Source: Hyphomicrobiales bacterium (GTDB taxonomy: Bacteria > Pseudomonadota > Alphaproteobacteria > Rhizobiales > Xanthobacteraceae). Taken from it: DNA of 64,000 nt. The notes below the pieces were generated by a model. It was not told where the DNA came from and made no database searches. It saw only the letters and a list, made by a program, of their open reading frames with translations. The number at the start of each line of letters is the position of its first letter. Within the stretch, counting starts at the first letter, position 1. The stretch is from positions 1 through 64,000 of the forward strand of contig WHTM01000024.1 in NCBI GenBank assembly GCA_009377755.1, read 5' to 3'. Below are positions 54,576-60,924 of the stretch, in pieces. A program made the translations under genes and the position numbers.

Positions 54576-55565
54576 CTAGGACATCGCCTTCTGGAAGAAG
54601 TCCATGCGCAACGCCTTGTTCCAGTCCGGGACGGCTTTGATCTTCTTCTCCTTCAGGAGAACCTCGGCGTGGTGCTGCATGTAGGGCTTGAGGTCGGAGG
54701 GCCACCCCGGCGCCACCTCCACCCGCGCGAGGGCCTTCGCGAAGGTGTCCTTCGACATCTTGTAGCCCTTCGAGGTGTAGAAGGAATAGATCGTGTCGGC
54801 GACCTTGCCTGGGTCGCTCTTGAAGGCCTTGTCGACGTCGATCCAGGCCTTCAGGTAGGAGACGATCGCGTCGCCATTCTTCTCCACGAATTCCGGCGTG
54901 GCGGCCATGAACACCGGCAGCTTGTCGAAGCTGTAGAAGTCGACCAGCGTCACGGCGAGACCGTCGGCTTCGGCGATCGCGTTGTAGGGCTCGACGCAGA
55001 CCATGGCGTCGACCGTCTTGGCGGCCATGGCGGCGACCATGTCGTTGACGTTCATCCGGACCTCTTGGTAGTCGCCCTTTTTGAGGCCCGCGCCCGTGGC
55101 AATCTGGTCCACGAAGATGTTGCCGGTCGAAGAACCGGTCTGGTTGGCGACCTTCTTGCCGCGGAGCTGTTCGACCTTGCTGATGCCGAGGTCCTTGCGG
55201 GCCATCACGCGCGCTGTCTTGCCGACGTTGTTGACGACGGCGATCGCGATCAGGCCGCCTTTGTCGTGGCCGATGATGAACGACGGGCCGGCATAGGTGC
55301 CCATGTCGACCTGACGCGCCACCATCTGCTGCATGGTGAGGTTGCCCGACGGCACGGCGAATTCCTGGATATTGATACCGCGCTTCTCGAGCAGGCCGGA
55401 CTTCAACAGATAGTAGGTGGGCATGCCCCACATGTTGGTCTGGTAGCCTTGACGGATCGTCGTCGCGGCCGCGGCTAATCCAACGCCACCGAGGCCGGCC
55501 GCCACCGCGGCGCTCGTTCCCACAAGGTATTGCCGACGTGTCAGTCCAGTGTGCCGTATCGTCAT
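54576..55565 (-). CDS. NitT/SsuA family ABC transporter substrate-binding protein (Tat signal)
   Basis: 329 residues with a twin-arginine signal: LTRRQYLVGTSAAVAAGL. IRQGYQTNMWGMPTYYLLKSG, GKKVANQTGSSTGNIFVDQI and MVAAMAAKTVDAMVCVEPYN are the type II binding fold of the nitrate/taurine/sulfonate/pyrimidine-precursor group. The ATPase gene lies just upstream (60 bp) and the permeases are 3.5 kb away beyond a regulator cluster. Ligand unknown. Confidence 0.88.
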   Translation of the reverse strand: MTIRHTGLTRRQYLVGTSAAVAAGLGGVGLAAAATTIRQGYQTNMWGMPTYYLLKSGLLEKRGINIQEFAVPSGNLTMQQMVARQVDMGTYAGPSFIIGHDKGGLIAIAVVNNVGKTARVMARKDLGISKVEQLRGKKVANQTGSSTGNIFVDQIATGAGLKKGDYQEVRMNVNDMVAAMAAKTVDAMVCVEPYNAIAEADGLAVTLVDFYSFDKLPVFMAATPEFVEKNGDAIVSYLKAWIDVDKAFKSDPGKVADTIYSFYTSKGYKMSKDTFAKALARVEVAPGWPSDLKPYMQHHAEVLLKEKKIKAVPDWNKALRMDFFQKAMS

Positions 55566-55624
55566 TGCTCACTCCCTTTGGTGATGACTGCTTGCGTTTC
55601 CATGTCTGTAGCCCCTGGTTTCGG

Positions 55625-56386
55625 TCAGGCCTGGGGTGTTTCTTGGCCTAGTTGGCGCAGGAGCTGCTTTTGATAGTCCAGAAAATCGACACTGAGCGGA
55701 TCGCGCGGCCGCGCCAGGCTGACCGGCACCTCGATCTTCACGGTGCCGGGATGCGGGGTCATGACCACGACCCGGTCAGCCAGGTACACCGCTTCGGCAA
55801 CGTTGTGCGTCACGTAGATCACCGTCTTGCGGGTTTCCCGCCACACGTCCGCCAGAAGCCGCTGCATGTCGTCGCGGGTGAGCGCGTCGAGCGCGGCGAA
55901 CGGCTCGTCCATCAATAGCACGGCTGGATTGTAGGCGAGAGCGCGAGCAATGGCGACCCGCTGCTGCATGCCGCCCGACAGGTGATGCGGGTAGGACCGG
56001 ACGAATTTCTCGAGCTTGACTAACTTAAGCTGTTCCAGCGCGATTTCCTCGCGCTCCGCTTTGCCGATACCCTTCATTTCCAGGCCGAATTCGACGTTTC
56101 CGAGTGCGGTTCGCCACGGGAACAGCTGGGCGAAATCCTGGAAAACCACCCCACGGTCCATGCCGTGCCCGGTTACCACCTTGCCGCCGATGCGGATCTC
56201 GCCGCCGGTCGGCGCCAGGAACCCGGCGATGATGTTGAGTAGCGTCGACTTGCCACATCCGCTTGGGCCCACCAGACACAAGAACTCCGACTCCTCCATG
56301 TTGAAGTTCGCGTCCTGGACGCCGGTGACCCGGCCGGCGGGCGTGTCGTAGACAAGACTAACGTCGCGAACTTCGATATGGGACAT
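55625..56386 (-). CDS. NitT/SsuB family ABC transporter ATP-binding protein
   Basis: 253 residues. Walker A GPSGCGKST, signature LSGGMQQRVAIARALAY, Walker B VLLMDEPFAALD, switch YVTHNVAEAV: all canonical. ATG 56386 is 6 bases from GAGGAA. It is divergent from the Spy/CpxP-type gene; the 173-bp spacer holds the CpxR-type box. Confidence 0.92.
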   Translation of the reverse strand: MSHIEVRDVSLVYDTPAGRVTGVQDANFNMEESEFLCLVGPSGCGKSTLLNIIAGFLAPTGGEIRIGGKVVTGHGMDRGVVFQDFAQLFPWRTALGNVEFGLEMKGIGKAEREEIALEQLKLVKLEKFVRSYPHHLSGGMQQRVAIARALAYNPAVLLMDEPFAALDALTRDDMQRLLADVWRETRKTVIYVTHNVAEAVYLADRVVVMTPHPGTVKIEVPVSLARPRDPLSVDFLDYQKQLLRQLGQETPQA

Positions 56387-56458
56387 CGGCATTTCCTCGA
56401 GCGCGGCTTCTTACATGGCAAAGCCGCCTTTTTCCATTCATCGGACGGGCCAAACGGC

Positions 56459-56473
56459 TTTACAAAACTTTAC
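56459..56473 (-). promoter_or_regulatory. CpxR-type response-regulator box
   Basis: TTTAC-AAAAC-TTTAC on the plus strand is GTAAA-GTTTT-GTAAA on the minus strand, an exact match to the enterobacterial CpxR consensus GTAAA-N5-GTAAA. It lies 87 bp upstream of the Spy/CpxP-type gene, which is followed by an OmpR-family regulator and a histidine kinase. Confidence 0.6.
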
Positions 56474-56559
56474 ACCAGAGAGAAGCGCCGGAAACGGGCG
56501 TCTTCCAGATTGCTGACCCAGGGCGCATCGCCCCGCGATGACACTCGAAGGAGAACCAG

Positions 56560-57150
56560 ATGACCAATCATGAGACGCCGTCGAATCCGGCTGCAAGTTC
56601 CGTCCCCGGAGCGCAATCGCCCCCGCGCCGCGTCCGGCGCTACCTGGCGATTGCGGCCATCGTCGTGGCCGCCGGCCTCGCTGGCGCGGTCGCTTCCCAG
56701 GCATTCAGCGAGCAAGGCTTCGGCCGCGGCCATTGGCATGGGCCCGGCATGATGGGCGGCCCCATGGGGCGGACATTCGATCCGGCCCGGGCCGAGGACC
56801 GCGCCGACCGCATGGTGCGGCATATGGCGATCGAAATCGACGCCACGACCGAGCAGCAGGAAAAGCTGCGGGCGATCGTCAAAGCTGCGGTCAAGGACCT
56901 GGTTCCGTTGCGCAAAACGGCGCAAGCCGCGCGCCAGCGGGCGCATCAGCTCCTGACCCAGCCGACCATTGATCGTACCGCGATCGAGACGTTCCGCGCC
57001 GAGCAGATCGCGCAAGCCGATGCGGTCAGCAAGCGCCTTGCCCAGGCGCTGGGGGACGCGGCCGAAGTCCTCACGCAAGAGCAGCGCCAGAAGATCAACG
57101 ATCACATGATGCGCCGCCGGGGCTACTGGCGGGGCTGGCAACGCGGTTAG
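56560..57150 (+). CDS. Spy/CpxP-like periplasmic (heavy-metal sensor) protein
   Basis: 196 residues: a short cytosolic tail, one membrane anchor (about residues 27-47), then a His/Met/Gly-rich linker (GFGRGHWHGPGMMGG) and a helical domain with RADRMVRHMAIEIDATTEQQ and LTQEQRQKINDHMMRRRG. This is the LTxxQ-type architecture of the Spy/CpxP/CnrX group. It should act in the periplasm as a metal- or stress-responsive chaperone/sensor that restrains the kinase encoded two genes downstream. AAGGAGAA precedes the ATG. The response regulator GTG begins 9 bp after its stop. Confidence 0.85.
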   Translation: MTNHETPSNPAASSVPGAQSPPRRVRRYLAIAAIVVAAGLAGAVASQAFSEQGFGRGHWHGPGMMGGPMGRTFDPARAEDRADRMVRHMAIEIDATTEQQEKLRAIVKAAVKDLVPLRKTAQAARQRAHQLLTQPTIDRTAIETFRAEQIAQADAVSKRLAQALGDAAEVLTQEQRQKINDHMMRRRGYWRGWQRG

Positions 57151-57158
57151 AATGGTCC

Positions 57159-57845
57159 GTGCCAGACCGGATCCTGCTGATCGAAGACGACCGGCGCCTC
57201 GCCGAGATGGTCAAGAACTATCTCGGCGGGGCCGGTTTTGATGTTGCGGTGGCGCCGAAGGGAGCGACCGGCATCGCATTGCAAGGCCGCGAGGCCTTCG
57301 ATGCGGTCATTCTCGATCTGATGTTGCCTGACTTGGATGGCCTCGAAGTCTGCCGCCGCATCCGCGCGCAGACGAATGTACCGATCCTGATGCTCACGGC
57401 ACGCGGCGACGCCATGGACCGCGTCGTTGGGCTCGAACTGGGTGCCGATGACTATCTCCCGAAGCCGTTCGAGCCGCGCGAACTGCTGGCGCGGTTGAGG
57501 GCGATCCTGCGCCGCGCCAAGGGCGAGCGGAAGTCCGACGTGCTGCGGTTTGGGCGGCTCGAGGTCGACGTCGATGCGCGCCAGGTCCGCCTTGATGGCG
57601 ACGTGCGTGCGCTGACCAGCTATCAGTTCGCGCTGCTGCTGACGCTGGCCCGCAACGCCGGCCGCGTGTTGTCGCGCGATACGATCATGGATCACCTGAA
57701 GAACGAGCGGCTGGAAGCGTTCGACCGTTCGATCGACGTCCACATATCCCGCATCCGCGCCGCCATCGAAGATGAACCGAAGACGCCGCGTCGTGTCATC
57801 ACCGTCCGCGGTGCCGGCTACGTGTTCGCCAAGGCGCAGGATTAG
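57159..57845 (+). CDS. OmpR/PhoB family response regulator (CpxR-like)
   Basis: 228 residues. Receiver domain with acidic D10/D11, phospho-acceptor D53 (VILDLMLPD), T80 and K102 (LPKPFEP); the C-terminal winged helix has LTSYQFALLLTLARNAGRV and VRGAGYVFAKA. The start is GTG 57159, as the ATG at 57152 is out of frame. The operon Spy-like, regulator, kinase and the GTAAA-N5-GTAAA box upstream point to a CpxRA-type autoregulated circuit. Confidence 0.93.
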   Translation: MPDRILLIEDDRRLAEMVKNYLGGAGFDVAVAPKGATGIALQGREAFDAVILDLMLPDLDGLEVCRRIRAQTNVPILMLTARGDAMDRVVGLELGADDYLPKPFEPRELLARLRAILRRAKGERKSDVLRFGRLEVDVDARQVRLDGDVRALTSYQFALLLTLARNAGRVLSRDTIMDHLKNERLEAFDRSIDVHISRIRAAIEDEPKTPRRVITVRGAGYVFAKAQD

Positions 57846-57853
57846 AAGCGCTA

Positions 57854-59095
57854 ATGCGGCGGCTCTATCAGAAAATCTATCTCACGATCATCGCTAGCCT
57901 GGTCGTGGTCGTGCTTGTCGCCGGTGCCATCTGGCGGTTCGGGTCCAGCACGTCGCCCGCCGCTTTGTCGTTCGAGATCGCGGCGGAGTTTGCCGCGGCG
58001 GCTCTGCCGCCGGCAAGTGCGCCGCGGTCCGCTCTGAAGGAGGCCGTCAACCGGCTGGCCGGCCGCCTTGATGCGGACGTCGGCGTCTTCGACCGCAAGC
58101 TCGGGCTGATCGCCACGGCCGGCTGGCCGCTGCCGCCGCCGCGCCAAGTCGGTCCGGACTGGTCGTTCGGTCGGCAGGGCGCGACATGGACTTTCCCTTT
58201 GCCGGACGAGCGTTGGCTGGTCGTCCGCCCGCATGTGCCGCGCAGGCATCCGGCGCTGCATTTGGTGCTATTCCTCGGTGTCATCGCGCTCGGCGTAGCA
58301 CTGTGCGCATTTCCGGTGGTGCGCGGACTGACGCGGCGAATCGAGCGGCTGCAGACCGGCGTCGAGACCCTCGGCGCCGGCAATCTCTCCGCCCGGGTCA
58401 AGGTCGAAGGCCGCGACGAGGTCGCGCGGCTGGCAGAAAGCTTCAATCGCGCGGCTGCCCGTATCGAGGATCTGGTCGGGGCCCATCGTATGTTGCTTGC
58501 CAATGCCTCGCATGAACTGCGCACGCCGCTGTCGCGCATCCGGCTCGGGCTTGAATTGTTCCAGCAGAACAGCGATCCGAAGTACAAGACCGAGGTCGAA
58601 CGCGACATTGCAGAGCTTGATCTCCTGATCGATGAGATCCTGCTGACGAGCCGTCTCGATGCGATCGGCGTGCCACAGACCGTCGAGGACGTCGACCTGC
58701 TGGCGCTGGCAGCGGAGGAATGCGCGCGCTACGGCTGTGCGGCGGAAGGCCAGTCGGCCCCGGTCGGCGGCGATCCGCGCCTACTGCGGCGCCTGATCCG
58801 CAATCTGCTGGAGAACGCCAAACGGCACGGCAAGCCGCCGATGCGGGCGGAGGTGCGGAGTGAGAACGGCACGGCCGTCCTCGATGTGCTGGACGCCGGC
58901 GCAGGCGTTCCCGAGGCTGAGCGCGAACAGGTGTTCGCGCCGTTTCATCAGCTCGGCAGCGATGCCAAGGGCGTCGGTCTCGGACTCTCGCTGGTGCGGC
59001 GGATCGCGCGGCTGCACGGCGGCGATGCGGTGGTGGTGCCGCGGCCGGACAACCCGAGCTGTTTCCGCGTGACGCTGCCGCTGGTCCGAGCGTGA
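57854..59095 (+). CDS. Sensor histidine kinase (CpxA-like)
   Basis: 413 residues: TM1 at about 9-26, a roughly 105-residue periplasmic domain, TM2 at about 134-156, HAMP, then the dimerisation domain with H220 in NASHELRTPLSRIR and an ATPase domain with LIRNLLENAKRHG (N box) and GVGLGLSLVRRIARLHGG (G2). The small periplasmic domain is the place for contact with the Spy-like protein. It starts 8 bp after the regulator stop and is convergent with a permease gene (15 bp). Confidence 0.93.
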   Translation: MRRLYQKIYLTIIASLVVVVLVAGAIWRFGSSTSPAALSFEIAAEFAAAALPPASAPRSALKEAVNRLAGRLDADVGVFDRKLGLIATAGWPLPPPRQVGPDWSFGRQGATWTFPLPDERWLVVRPHVPRRHPALHLVLFLGVIALGVALCAFPVVRGLTRRIERLQTGVETLGAGNLSARVKVEGRDEVARLAESFNRAAARIEDLVGAHRMLLANASHELRTPLSRIRLGLELFQQNSDPKYKTEVERDIAELDLLIDEILLTSRLDAIGVPQTVEDVDLLALAAEECARYGCAAEGQSAPVGGDPRLLRRLIRNLLENAKRHGKPPMRAEVRSENGTAVLDVLDAGAGVPEAEREQVFAPFHQLGSDAKGVGLGLSLVRRIARLHGGDAVVVPRPDNPSCFRVTLPLVRA

Positions 59096-59110
59096 TGCCC
59101 GTGTTCGGTC

Positions 59111-59908
59111 CTATCCCTTCGCCGTGCGCACCATGCCCCAGCGCAGCACGGTGGCGCGCTCCAGCGAGCCGAAGGCGATCCGCTCGAAGAGGTAGCCGAT
59201 CGCCCCGATGACCGCCAAAGAGGCCAGCATCAATTCGGTGTTGAGGAATTCCTTGGCGTCGAAGATCACCCAGCCGAGCCCAAAATCCGACGCGGCGATC
59301 ATCTCGGCGCCGACAACGGCGATCCACGCGCGCAGAAACGCCTGCCGCAGCCCGGTAATGATGAACGGCGACGCGCCTGGAATAATCACCTTCCAGAACA
59401 GGGCATTCTCGTTGGCACCCATGGCGCCGGCCGCCCGCAGCCACAATGGATTGACCGAGCGCACGCCCGACCACGTATTGAGCAGCATCGGGAACGTGGC
59501 CGCGTAGAACACGATCAGGATCGAGACCGTGTTGCCTAGTCCGAACCAGAGGATGAACACCGGCACCCAAGCCAGCGACGGGATCGGCATCAATGCGCTC
59601 GCCAGCGGCAGGAAGAAGTTCTCCACCGGCTTGTAGCGCGCCATCAGGATACCAAGCGGGAGACCTACGATGATCGCGAGCGAGAAGCCAAACATCACCC
59701 GGTACATGGTGCCGAGCGCATGTTGCAGCATGCTGCCGTCCAGTAGTGTCGTCACCAACGTGCTGAGGATACTCGACAGCGGCGGCATCAGGGCTGCCGG
59801 GAAGTAGCCGGTACGGGCCACGATTTCATAGAGCGCCGCCACGGTGATGATCGAGATCGCGGCGCGGCGATAAGAGCGGGTGCGGTCGTTGACGGCGGTT
59901 GCGCTCAC
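59111..59908 (-). CDS. NitT/SsuC family ABC permease (second)
   Basis: 265 residues with about six membrane helices and the EAA loop (GAMGANENALFWKVIIPGAS). It forms the channel with the upstream permease. GTG 59908 follows GGAGG at 8 bases and is one base after the TGA of the upstream permease, so translation is coupled. The ATPase and SBP genes lie beyond the regulator cluster. Confidence 0.9.
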   Translation of the reverse strand: MSATAVNDRTRSYRRAAISIITVAALYEIVARTGYFPAALMPPLSSILSTLVTTLLDGSMLQHALGTMYRVMFGFSLAIIVGLPLGILMARYKPVENFFLPLASALMPIPSLAWVPVFILWFGLGNTVSILIVFYAATFPMLLNTWSGVRSVNPLWLRAAGAMGANENALFWKVIIPGASPFIITGLRQAFLRAWIAVVGAEMIAASDFGLGWVIFDAKEFLNTELMLASLAVIGAIGYLFERIAFGSLERATVLRWGMVRTAKG

Positions 59909-59909
59909 G

Positions 59910-60758
59910 TCACGATCCTCCACTCGTCATCATGCCCCAGCGGACTACGGTATGGTTCTCGAGTCGCTGGAACACGAACTTCTCCAAGGCGAGGCCGAGA
60001 ATGGCGATGACTGCAACGCCGGACAGCATGACGTCGGTGTTGAGGAACTCACGGGCGCCGAAGATCATCCAGCCGAGGCCCCAGGGCACCGCGGCGAGCA
60101 TTTCCACACCAACCAGGATGCGCCACGCCTGCGCCAGTCCGAGCCGCAGTCCGGTGAGAATGTAGGGCAAGGCGCCGGGCAGGATCACATGCCGGAACAG
60201 CCGGCGACTGTCCGCGCCCATTGCTTGGGCGGAGCGCACCCAGATTTCCTTCACCGCTTTCACACCGGTCCAGGTGTTGAAGATGATCGGGAACCCGGCG
60301 ACGAAGCCGACCAGCAGCACAGCCGGTACATTGCCCAGGCCGAACCACAGCAGGAACAGCGGGGCGTAGGCGATTCCGGGAATCGGCGCCATGATGCTCA
60401 CCAGCGGCAGGAGGATGTCCTCCATCCGTCGCGAGCGCCCCATCAGGATGCCGAGCCCGACTCCGACGATTGCCGCCAGCGCGAAGCCACCTATGAGCCG
60501 GATCACCGTCTGTACGGCATGGTGCAGCAGGATACCGTTGGCAGTGAGCTGGACGAATGCGGAGACGACCTCTTCCACCGTCGGAAACAGCCGCGGGTGA
60601 AAGATGCCGAGATGGGCGACGATCTCCCAAAGCCCCAGCACCACGGCGAACGGGAAGGCGGTCCGCAGGACGGCCCGAAGTCGGTCGTTCCAGACCAGCG
60701 CGGCCGCCGGCGCCGATGGAAGCGCGGGATTGGCCGATTGACCATCGTGCACGGTCAT
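59910..60758 (-). CDS. NitT/SsuC family ABC permease (first)
   Basis: 282 residues with six helices; the EAA loop is AQAMGADSRRLFRHVILPGALPY in parts. Similar to but distinct from its neighbour, so the channel is a heterodimer. ATG 60758 is preceded by AGGGAAG at about 9 bases; the longer frame lacks support. It lies 166 bp after the MetE-C-like gene on the same strand. Confidence 0.9.
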   Translation of the reverse strand: MTVHDGQSANPALPSAPAAALVWNDRLRAVLRTAFPFAVVLGLWEIVAHLGIFHPRLFPTVEEVVSAFVQLTANGILLHHAVQTVIRLIGGFALAAIVGVGLGILMGRSRRMEDILLPLVSIMAPIPGIAYAPLFLLWFGLGNVPAVLLVGFVAGFPIIFNTWTGVKAVKEIWVRSAQAMGADSRRLFRHVILPGALPYILTGLRLGLAQAWRILVGVEMLAAVPWGLGWMIFGAREFLNTDVMLSGVAVIAILGLALEKFVFQRLENHTVVRWGMMTSGGS

Positions 60759-60924
60759 TGGACGAATCTTCCCTGGCGGTCGCGTATTCCCGAACGGCCT
60801 GATTCCACGGCGGCCAAATTTCAGCAACCGGACGTTGCCCCAAGGATAGTGCGATCAATGGCGGCCGGACAAGCGGCCGAACGCCGCGCGGGGCGTCCAT
60901 CGGCGTTCTTTGTGTCCAAGGTTG

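Follow-up and report, generated by a model that had tools for sequence, protein, structure and literature searches.

Does a perfect CpxR box in front of a Spy-like gene mean that the genes behind it form a Cpx system? We addressed this question for an operon in a 64,000-nucleotide stretch of DNA (the window; positions 1 to 64,000 of contig WHTM01000024.1, assembly GCA_009377755.1) from a Hyphomicrobiales bacterium of the Xanthobacteraceae. On the plus strand, the operon encodes a Spy/CpxP/ZraP-like periplasmic protein (56560–57150), an OmpR-family response regulator (57159–57845) and a sensor histidine kinase (57854–59095), an order proposed by a first-pass annotation and borne out by coordinates and profile matches. 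We conclude that the box is very probably the operator of the regulator encoded just downstream, and that it very probably serves positive, Cpx-like autoregulation of the spy–regulator–kinase operon.

The box lies on the minus strand at 56459–56473 (GTAAAGTTTTGTAAA). As first annotated, it matches the CpxR consensus GTAAA-N5-GTAAA with no mismatch, and it forms a direct repeat with a 10-bp period that reads TTTAC-N5-TTTAC on the gene strand. The gap between the box and the ATG of the Spy-like gene is 86 bp, so that the placement given by the annotation stands, with its distance of 87 bp corrected by one. GTAAAGTTTTGTAAA is the sole exact match in the window; with up to two mismatches allowed, the window contains 7 matches against 3.98 expected, a number reached by 12 of 100 shuffles. 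One exact site, taken alone, is not compelling.

Related operons were gathered in two ways, by the kinase (149 genomes of the family) and by the regulator (80 loci), and 59 loci were counted, each with a regulator at about 59% identity or more. Left out before counting were L049 and L050 (sharing contigs with G008 and G021), L152/L046 (lacking a detected regulator), the incomplete L039 and L041, L048 (34% kinase), and 45 loci of L082–L128, other than L084 and L124, with regulators at most 53% identical; L020–L045 were replaced by the longer L129–L151, with L044 retained. The best site in the spacer is exact in 40 of the 59 loci and within one mismatch in 49, compared with no exact site and a mean of 0.125 loci at one mismatch in dinucleotide shuffles (40 per locus). 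The first-pass annotation had made its proposal depend on conservation in orthologous spacers, and that conservation is present. With L080 as the one exception, the 49 loci with at most one mismatch have the site on the opposite strand from the operon (48 of 49). Its usual form on its own strand is GTAAAGTTNNGTAAAG, in which the preceding base varies (T, C, G, A) and GTAAA is mostly constant. Even among loci in which tblastn detects no Spy gene, an exact site stands directly ahead of the regulator in 7 of 14, mostly in Burkholderiales. Most of the 59 loci are alpha- or betaproteobacterial; the site is also found in the gammaproteobacterium Rudaea (L055, one mismatch) and in a metagenome-assembled genome named Myxococcales (L072, exact), and the gammaproteobacterial loci L056 and L063 are without it. 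Separately, we observed TGTAA-N5-TGTAA somewhere in the fetched stretch of 11 of the 45 more distant regulator loci left out above (L087, L088, L090, L093, L100, L105, L109, L116, L121, L123 and L127).

The presence of the site also follows the kinase. A best kinase match of at least 49% identity is found in 29 of the 149 family genomes, the next best falling below 40%. Exact GTAAAGTTNNGTAAAG occurs in 23 of these 29 genomes and in none of the other 120 (Fisher 8e-22), and the six kinase-bearing genomes without the exact extended site contain variants of it. The 23 genomes hold 28 exact sites (reversed control, 1), of which 22 lie ahead of the operon (in G142 assigned from its position only) and 6 elsewhere. 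This association bears on the proposal that the box is used by another OmpR-family regulator, either RstA-, RpaB- or OmpR-like or a second one in the genome. RstA and RpaB use TGTAA/TTACA direct repeats of the same period, and the best NCBIfam model for the kinase of the window is RstB (168.7 bits, cut-off 478), ahead of EnvZ (131.7 bits, cut-off 415), with neither cut-off reached. Both the tracking of the kinase orthologue by the site and the variable base before a mostly constant GTAAA speak against such a regulator, the latter fitting a CpxR-type box better than an RstA-type one. An RstA-type reading of the box, which would call for T at that position, was set aside as less fitting, and use by another regulator is very unlikely.

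A second conserved block became visible once the loci were aligned on the operator. It was counted in the loci with a gene-strand site of at most one mismatch (48 of the 49, not L080) together with the S. meliloti locus L195; 22 of these 49 loci come from outside the family group. An A at +48 and a T at +52 from the operator start are found in 48 of the 49 loci against 2.5 expected, the single miss being L065, and no other offset between +15 and +65 reaches 8 loci. At sites that did not define the offset, the pair recurs in both further family autoregulatory loci tested (L164, L170), and it is also seen in three of the four autoregulatory loci at class level. In the window, these bases would be A-11 and T-7 of a putative −10 element, CAGATT (56506–56511, plus strand), predicting a transcription start at approximately 56518 (plus strand) and an operator centre near −52. 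The window promoter has no recognizable match to a −35 element. A GAAAC element between the operator and the −10 (56491–56495, plus strand) is conserved in family promoters, and GAAAC, GAAAT or GACAT is present at all 6 non-autoregulatory family sites; we considered GAAAC as a −35 and rejected it, since it lies too near the −10. Because the site is conserved in orthologous spacers, co-occurs with the kinase orthologue and is followed by a −10-like element at a fixed distance, it stands out beyond chance. A chance match would sit well with the lack of genome-wide enrichment described below, but conservation and the fixed −10-like pair both contradict it, and its probability is negligible.

Several observations weigh against the autoregulatory reading. 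The counted loci are related by descent, and their counts are therefore not independent; in 10 of the 59, several Comamonadaceae among them, the best site has two or more mismatches. The 48/52 offset was noticed and counted on largely the same loci, the pair occurs at only 3 of the 6 non-autoregulatory family sites, and the candidate −10 of E. coli cpxP (TAAACT) lies 1 bp nearer than the conserved offset. The organism's own 5.2-Mb assembly contains a single exact GTAAA-N5-GTAAA, the one before the Spy-like gene. The genome scan that the first-pass annotation had suggested as a check turned out negative, with 22 matches within one mismatch against 68 for the reversed-pattern control, and two other motif forms were likewise not enriched (18 against 56, and 6 against 12). 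With near-matches rarer than their reversed controls throughout, genome-wide enrichment was rejected as support. No second target was found in this genome, the near matches (L156–L160) being listed by open reading frames only. A regulon beyond the operon itself has no support in the organism's own genome, given one exact site and unenriched near-matches.

Exact sites away from the operon were seen in relatives. The six such sites, all in family genomes in which the operon is present too, adjoin ydhR (L183), two DsbB genes (L187), OsmC (L184), a MacB-type permease (L173) and cytochrome b561 (L175), the sixth being at L179, about position 1501. Cytochrome b561 (PA3575) also appears in a list of P. 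aeruginosa CpxR targets in the available part of PMC12802237. Class-wide, the exact extended site is present in 16 of 385 genomes, against 5 control sites. Outside the organism's own genome this gives 15 loci: four (L286, L292–L294) have Spy and regulator matches, L285 has a regulator match of 45% and a weak kinase match, and the remaining 10 may be chance.

What, then, is the regulator? The 228-residue protein (GTG start) contains a receiver (PF00072) and a Trans_reg_C winged helix (PF00486), which places it in the OmpR/PhoB family. Its identity is 44% with E. coli OmpR, 41% with CpxR and 37% with RstA, and reaches 64% with a protein encoded on S. meliloti pSymB. None of the models reaches its cut-off: CpxR (NF008199) gives 179.5 bits against 341, OmpR 227.6 against 331 and RstA 176.3 against 330. 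The CpxR cut-off is reached by no protein of the organism's own genome and in one of 14 control genomes. In a tree of 86 rows, the regulator falls in a supported clade (99/89) whose other members include the S. meliloti protein and sequences from Burkholderiales and Methylobacterium; E. coli CpxR is in a separate group (92/72, not starred), and the regulator is also outside the OmpR group. Some deep branches of this tree are open, long branches are flagged and P. aeruginosa CpxR was left out. When labels were placed on the tree, the "core" label needed 4 changes, since L213, L219 and L220 (identical to L066, L061 and L058) had been left unlabelled. The recognition helix, FDRSIDVHISRIR, resembles that of CpxR, FDRAIDMHISNLR, with FDR-ID-HIS common to both; its His is found in 61 of 61 clade members, and E. 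coli OmpR has Gln. This similarity of the recognition helices may explain the common box.

The kinase (413 residues, plus strand) shows HAMP, HisKA and HATPase profile matches and a periplasmic domain of about 105 residues that is predicted to be PAS-like (model predicted template-modelling score, pTM, 0.46). Three fold matches of its N-terminus reach E ≤ 0.001, all of them integrative models of other sensors, and the first solved sensor PAS domain, 3cwf, follows at E 0.05. The periplasmic domain of CpxA (CpxA_peri, PF16527) has no match in the kinase at E ≤ 0.1, whereas E. coli CpxA matches at 3.7e-11, and the score against the CpxA model is 103.1 bits, with a cut-off of 486. These data allow us to judge whether the operon is a true Cpx system, its regulator orthologous to E. 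coli CpxR and its kinase to CpxA. The operator, the LTXXQ protein, the gene content and the recognition helix all suggest such a relationship; within its own genome, no protein matches the CpxR model better than the regulator (178.8 bits, the runner-up at 171.2), and according to the accessible text of PMC12802237, homologues of Cpx are found in alpha-, beta- and gammaproteobacteria. Yet the regulator probably is not a CpxR orthologue, because it lies outside the CpxR group of the tree, stays far below the CpxR cut-off and is slightly closer to OmpR, and because the kinase is without CpxA_peri.

Rhizobia provide a further argument in the same direction. Rhizobium mongolense carries both types of regulator, one of the window type (L219, 44% identical to E. 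coli CpxR) and one closer to CpxR (L207, G157; 49%). At L207, the stretch between 700 bp upstream of the gene and 50 bp into it contains no exact box, with N5 or N6; in this survey of regulators L204–L223, only plus-strand matches were properly sought and minus-strand ones were not used. R. etli has a homologue of L207 on a 251-kb plasmid, at the position described for RetPC57, a regulator 48.7% identical to CpxR for which the available part of its description reports that no cpxP was found (PMC7769827). RetPC57/RetPC58 resembles the system described here in being an alphaproteobacterial OmpR-family pair that has been compared with CpxR (PMC7769827, seen in part). It differs from the window in its greater closeness to CpxR, in the missing cpxP homologue and in the missing exact box of its Rhizobium counterpart. 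Taken with the tree and the model scores, a true Cpx system is improbable.

The Spy-like protein (196 residues, with an N-terminal signal or anchor) matches PF13801 (Metal_resist) at 50.1 bits (cut-off 29.2) and PF07813 (LTXXQ) at 32.8 bits (cut-off 24.3), and thereby belongs to the LTXXQ-family periplasmic proteins of the Spy/CpxP/ZraP type. One of its LTXXQ motifs is good (LTQEQ, 171–175), and the first is degenerate in the alignment (ATTEQ, 95–99). Its AlphaFold model, examined for the helical hook fold of the Spy/CpxP/ZraP superfamily, is all-helical, with a mean predicted local distance difference test (pLDDT) of 77, and the best Foldseek matches are ZraP, CpxP and Spy at probabilities of 0.98–1.0, with a best E of 0.1 and none at E ≤ 0.001. 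The protein probably shares the fold class of metal-associated periplasmic proteins such as ZraP and CnrX. Could the circuit then sense metal, with the Spy-like protein as a metal-binding sensor, rather than misfolded envelope proteins? The Metal_resist profile scores above LTXXQ, the reverse of E. coli CpxP, the top Foldseek matches are to ZraP, and the protein contains a His/Met-rich stretch, HWHGPGMMGGPMG. This stretch varies between orthologues, a difference from ZraP and CnrX; the fold matches are weak, with CpxP and Spy coming directly after ZraP; and in the related operon of S. meliloti, induction follows the loss of TolC, according to the part of PMC2912261 available. A metal-sensing circuit is therefore rather unlikely, though it is the strongest of the alternatives considered here.

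Among the closest known counterparts of the operon is SMb21562–SMb21561–SMb21560 of S. meliloti, a CpxP–CpxR–CpxA-like operon with GTAAAN5GTAAA upstream that was reported in 2010; without tolC, expression of its genes goes up 69-, 27- and 14-fold (PMC2912261, seen in part). The two share gene order, the LTXXQ protein and the upstream box, and differ in family and neighbourhood. Our pSymB match (strain AK57), which likewise follows a Spy/CpxP gene with the box on the same strand, appears to be SMb21561, judging from gene order, plasmid and box and not from a locus tag. In E. coli, an exact site precedes cpxP on the same strand, at 79 bp from the ATG compared with 86 bp in the window, and the E. 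coli Cpx system shares the LTXXQ protein and a similar recognition helix. Unlike the gene in the window, E. coli cpxP is divergent from cpxRA, and the E. coli regulator and kinase differ from those of the window as described above. For the CpxR–CpxP–CpxS system of P. aeruginosa, the available sections describe a box before cpxP and a CpxR-activated promoter (PMC5063474, PMC12802237; activation also PMC10648845), with activation needing D52 (PMC5063474); its gene arrangement is unlike that of the window, and its regulator is not among the rows of the tree. The circuit type is thus already known from the S. meliloti relative. In our literature search, which has blind spots and drew on sources available in part, a box before such an alphaproteobacterial operon was found only in PMC2912261 and the fixed −10 spacing in none. 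What the present analysis adds is a clade apparently distinct from CpxR proper and a fixed promoter geometry.

The best reading of the conserved box and the cpxP-like layout is a CpxP–CpxR–CpxA-like autoregulated circuit. The first-pass annotation had read the locus as such a circuit with its operator; the box and the layout uphold this, and the position of the regulator outside the CpxR group and the absence of a CpxA_peri match limit it to a likeness. The reading rests on the site, its conservation, its strand and distance, the fixed −10-like pair and the co-occurrence with the kinase; from these we infer binding by the operon's own regulator, activation, co-transcription, a feedback step and the signal. 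We propose that the phosphorylated regulator would bind the direct repeat, whose centre lies some 52 bp ahead of the start site, and, once bound, would activate a promoter with a −10 and no recognizable −35, resulting in positive autoregulation of the operon. The Spy-like protein from the same transcript would act as a periplasmic chaperone and, by analogy with CpxP, would probably damp the kinase. The signal may be envelope stress.

The operon sits inside an Ssu/Tau-like ATP-binding cassette (ABC) transporter cluster (54576–60827). The permeases (59111–60827), the first of which (59111–59923, minus strand) marks the boundary of the inserted operon, form one half of the split cluster; the ATPase (55625–56392, minus strand), the immediate neighbour divergent to the operon, and the binding protein form the other (54576–56392). 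The spacer of 173 bp given by the first-pass annotation holds when counted from the second ATG of the ATPase gene, and is 167 bp from the first. We compared 20 regions from 20 of 30 relatives with a substrate-binding gene. In 9 of these the genes for permease, ATPase and binding protein adjoin one another, in 2 they are all present but separated by other sequence, and the other 9 stretches yielded no permease; of the 11 relatives with all four transporter genes, 9 thus have them contiguous. The spy–regulator–kinase operon was not seen in any of the 20 regions (E ≤ 1e-20). Conversely, an ATPase gene immediately next to the operon is absent from all 58 other operon loci, and 2 kb or more of sequence precedes the regulator in 54 of the 59 loci; weaker or farther ATPase matches occur in L051, L053, L065 (downstream) and L080 (35%, upstream). 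Because the cluster is contiguous in relatives and other operons have no ATPase gene beside them, the most likely role for the transporter is that of a bystander, its cluster having been split by the operon. The suggestion that it belongs to the regulon thus finds no backing, and the conserved −10 lies on the operon side. As an additional observation, genes of the ABC cluster are separated by roughly 1 to 3 kb in the relatives L250, L253, L257 and L259–L263, and the cluster seems prone to insertions.

A form of promoter capture could nevertheless connect the two, the box also driving the divergent ATPase and substrate-binding genes after their own promoter was lost when the operon landed. With the cluster split here, the ATPase half probably needs a promoter, and CpxR is said, with reference to earlier work, to act whatever the orientation of its site (PMC5063474, seen in part). 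The conserved −10 on the operon side, with the ATPase-side spacer not searched for a promoter, and the lack of comparative support (0 of 58 other loci) make such capture unlikely.

The operon-side reading, positive autoregulation from a conserved box, leads to a broader picture that we offer tentatively, as plausible but somewhat doubtful. Two separate lineages of the OmpR family, namely CpxR proper and the clade to which the window's regulator belongs, would run the same operator and LTXXQ-protein feedback module, with rigid spacing between operator and −10 across alpha- and betaproteobacteria and in one gammaproteobacterial and one myxobacterial locus. The module would move as a unit; here it would have landed in a transporter cluster, of which it may have captured the ATPase half. 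Our results suggest that the presence of a textbook CpxR box does not prove that the regulator is CpxR, as a different regulator clade appears to use this operator too, within a promoter of conserved geometry. Annotation based on the box would thus pick up the right type of circuit yet may give the regulator a wrong name. With the fixed spacing between operator and −10, the promoter model can be tested directly and members can be found more cleanly, and rhizobia that have both this system and a closer relative of CpxR would allow one to ask whether the two share targets.

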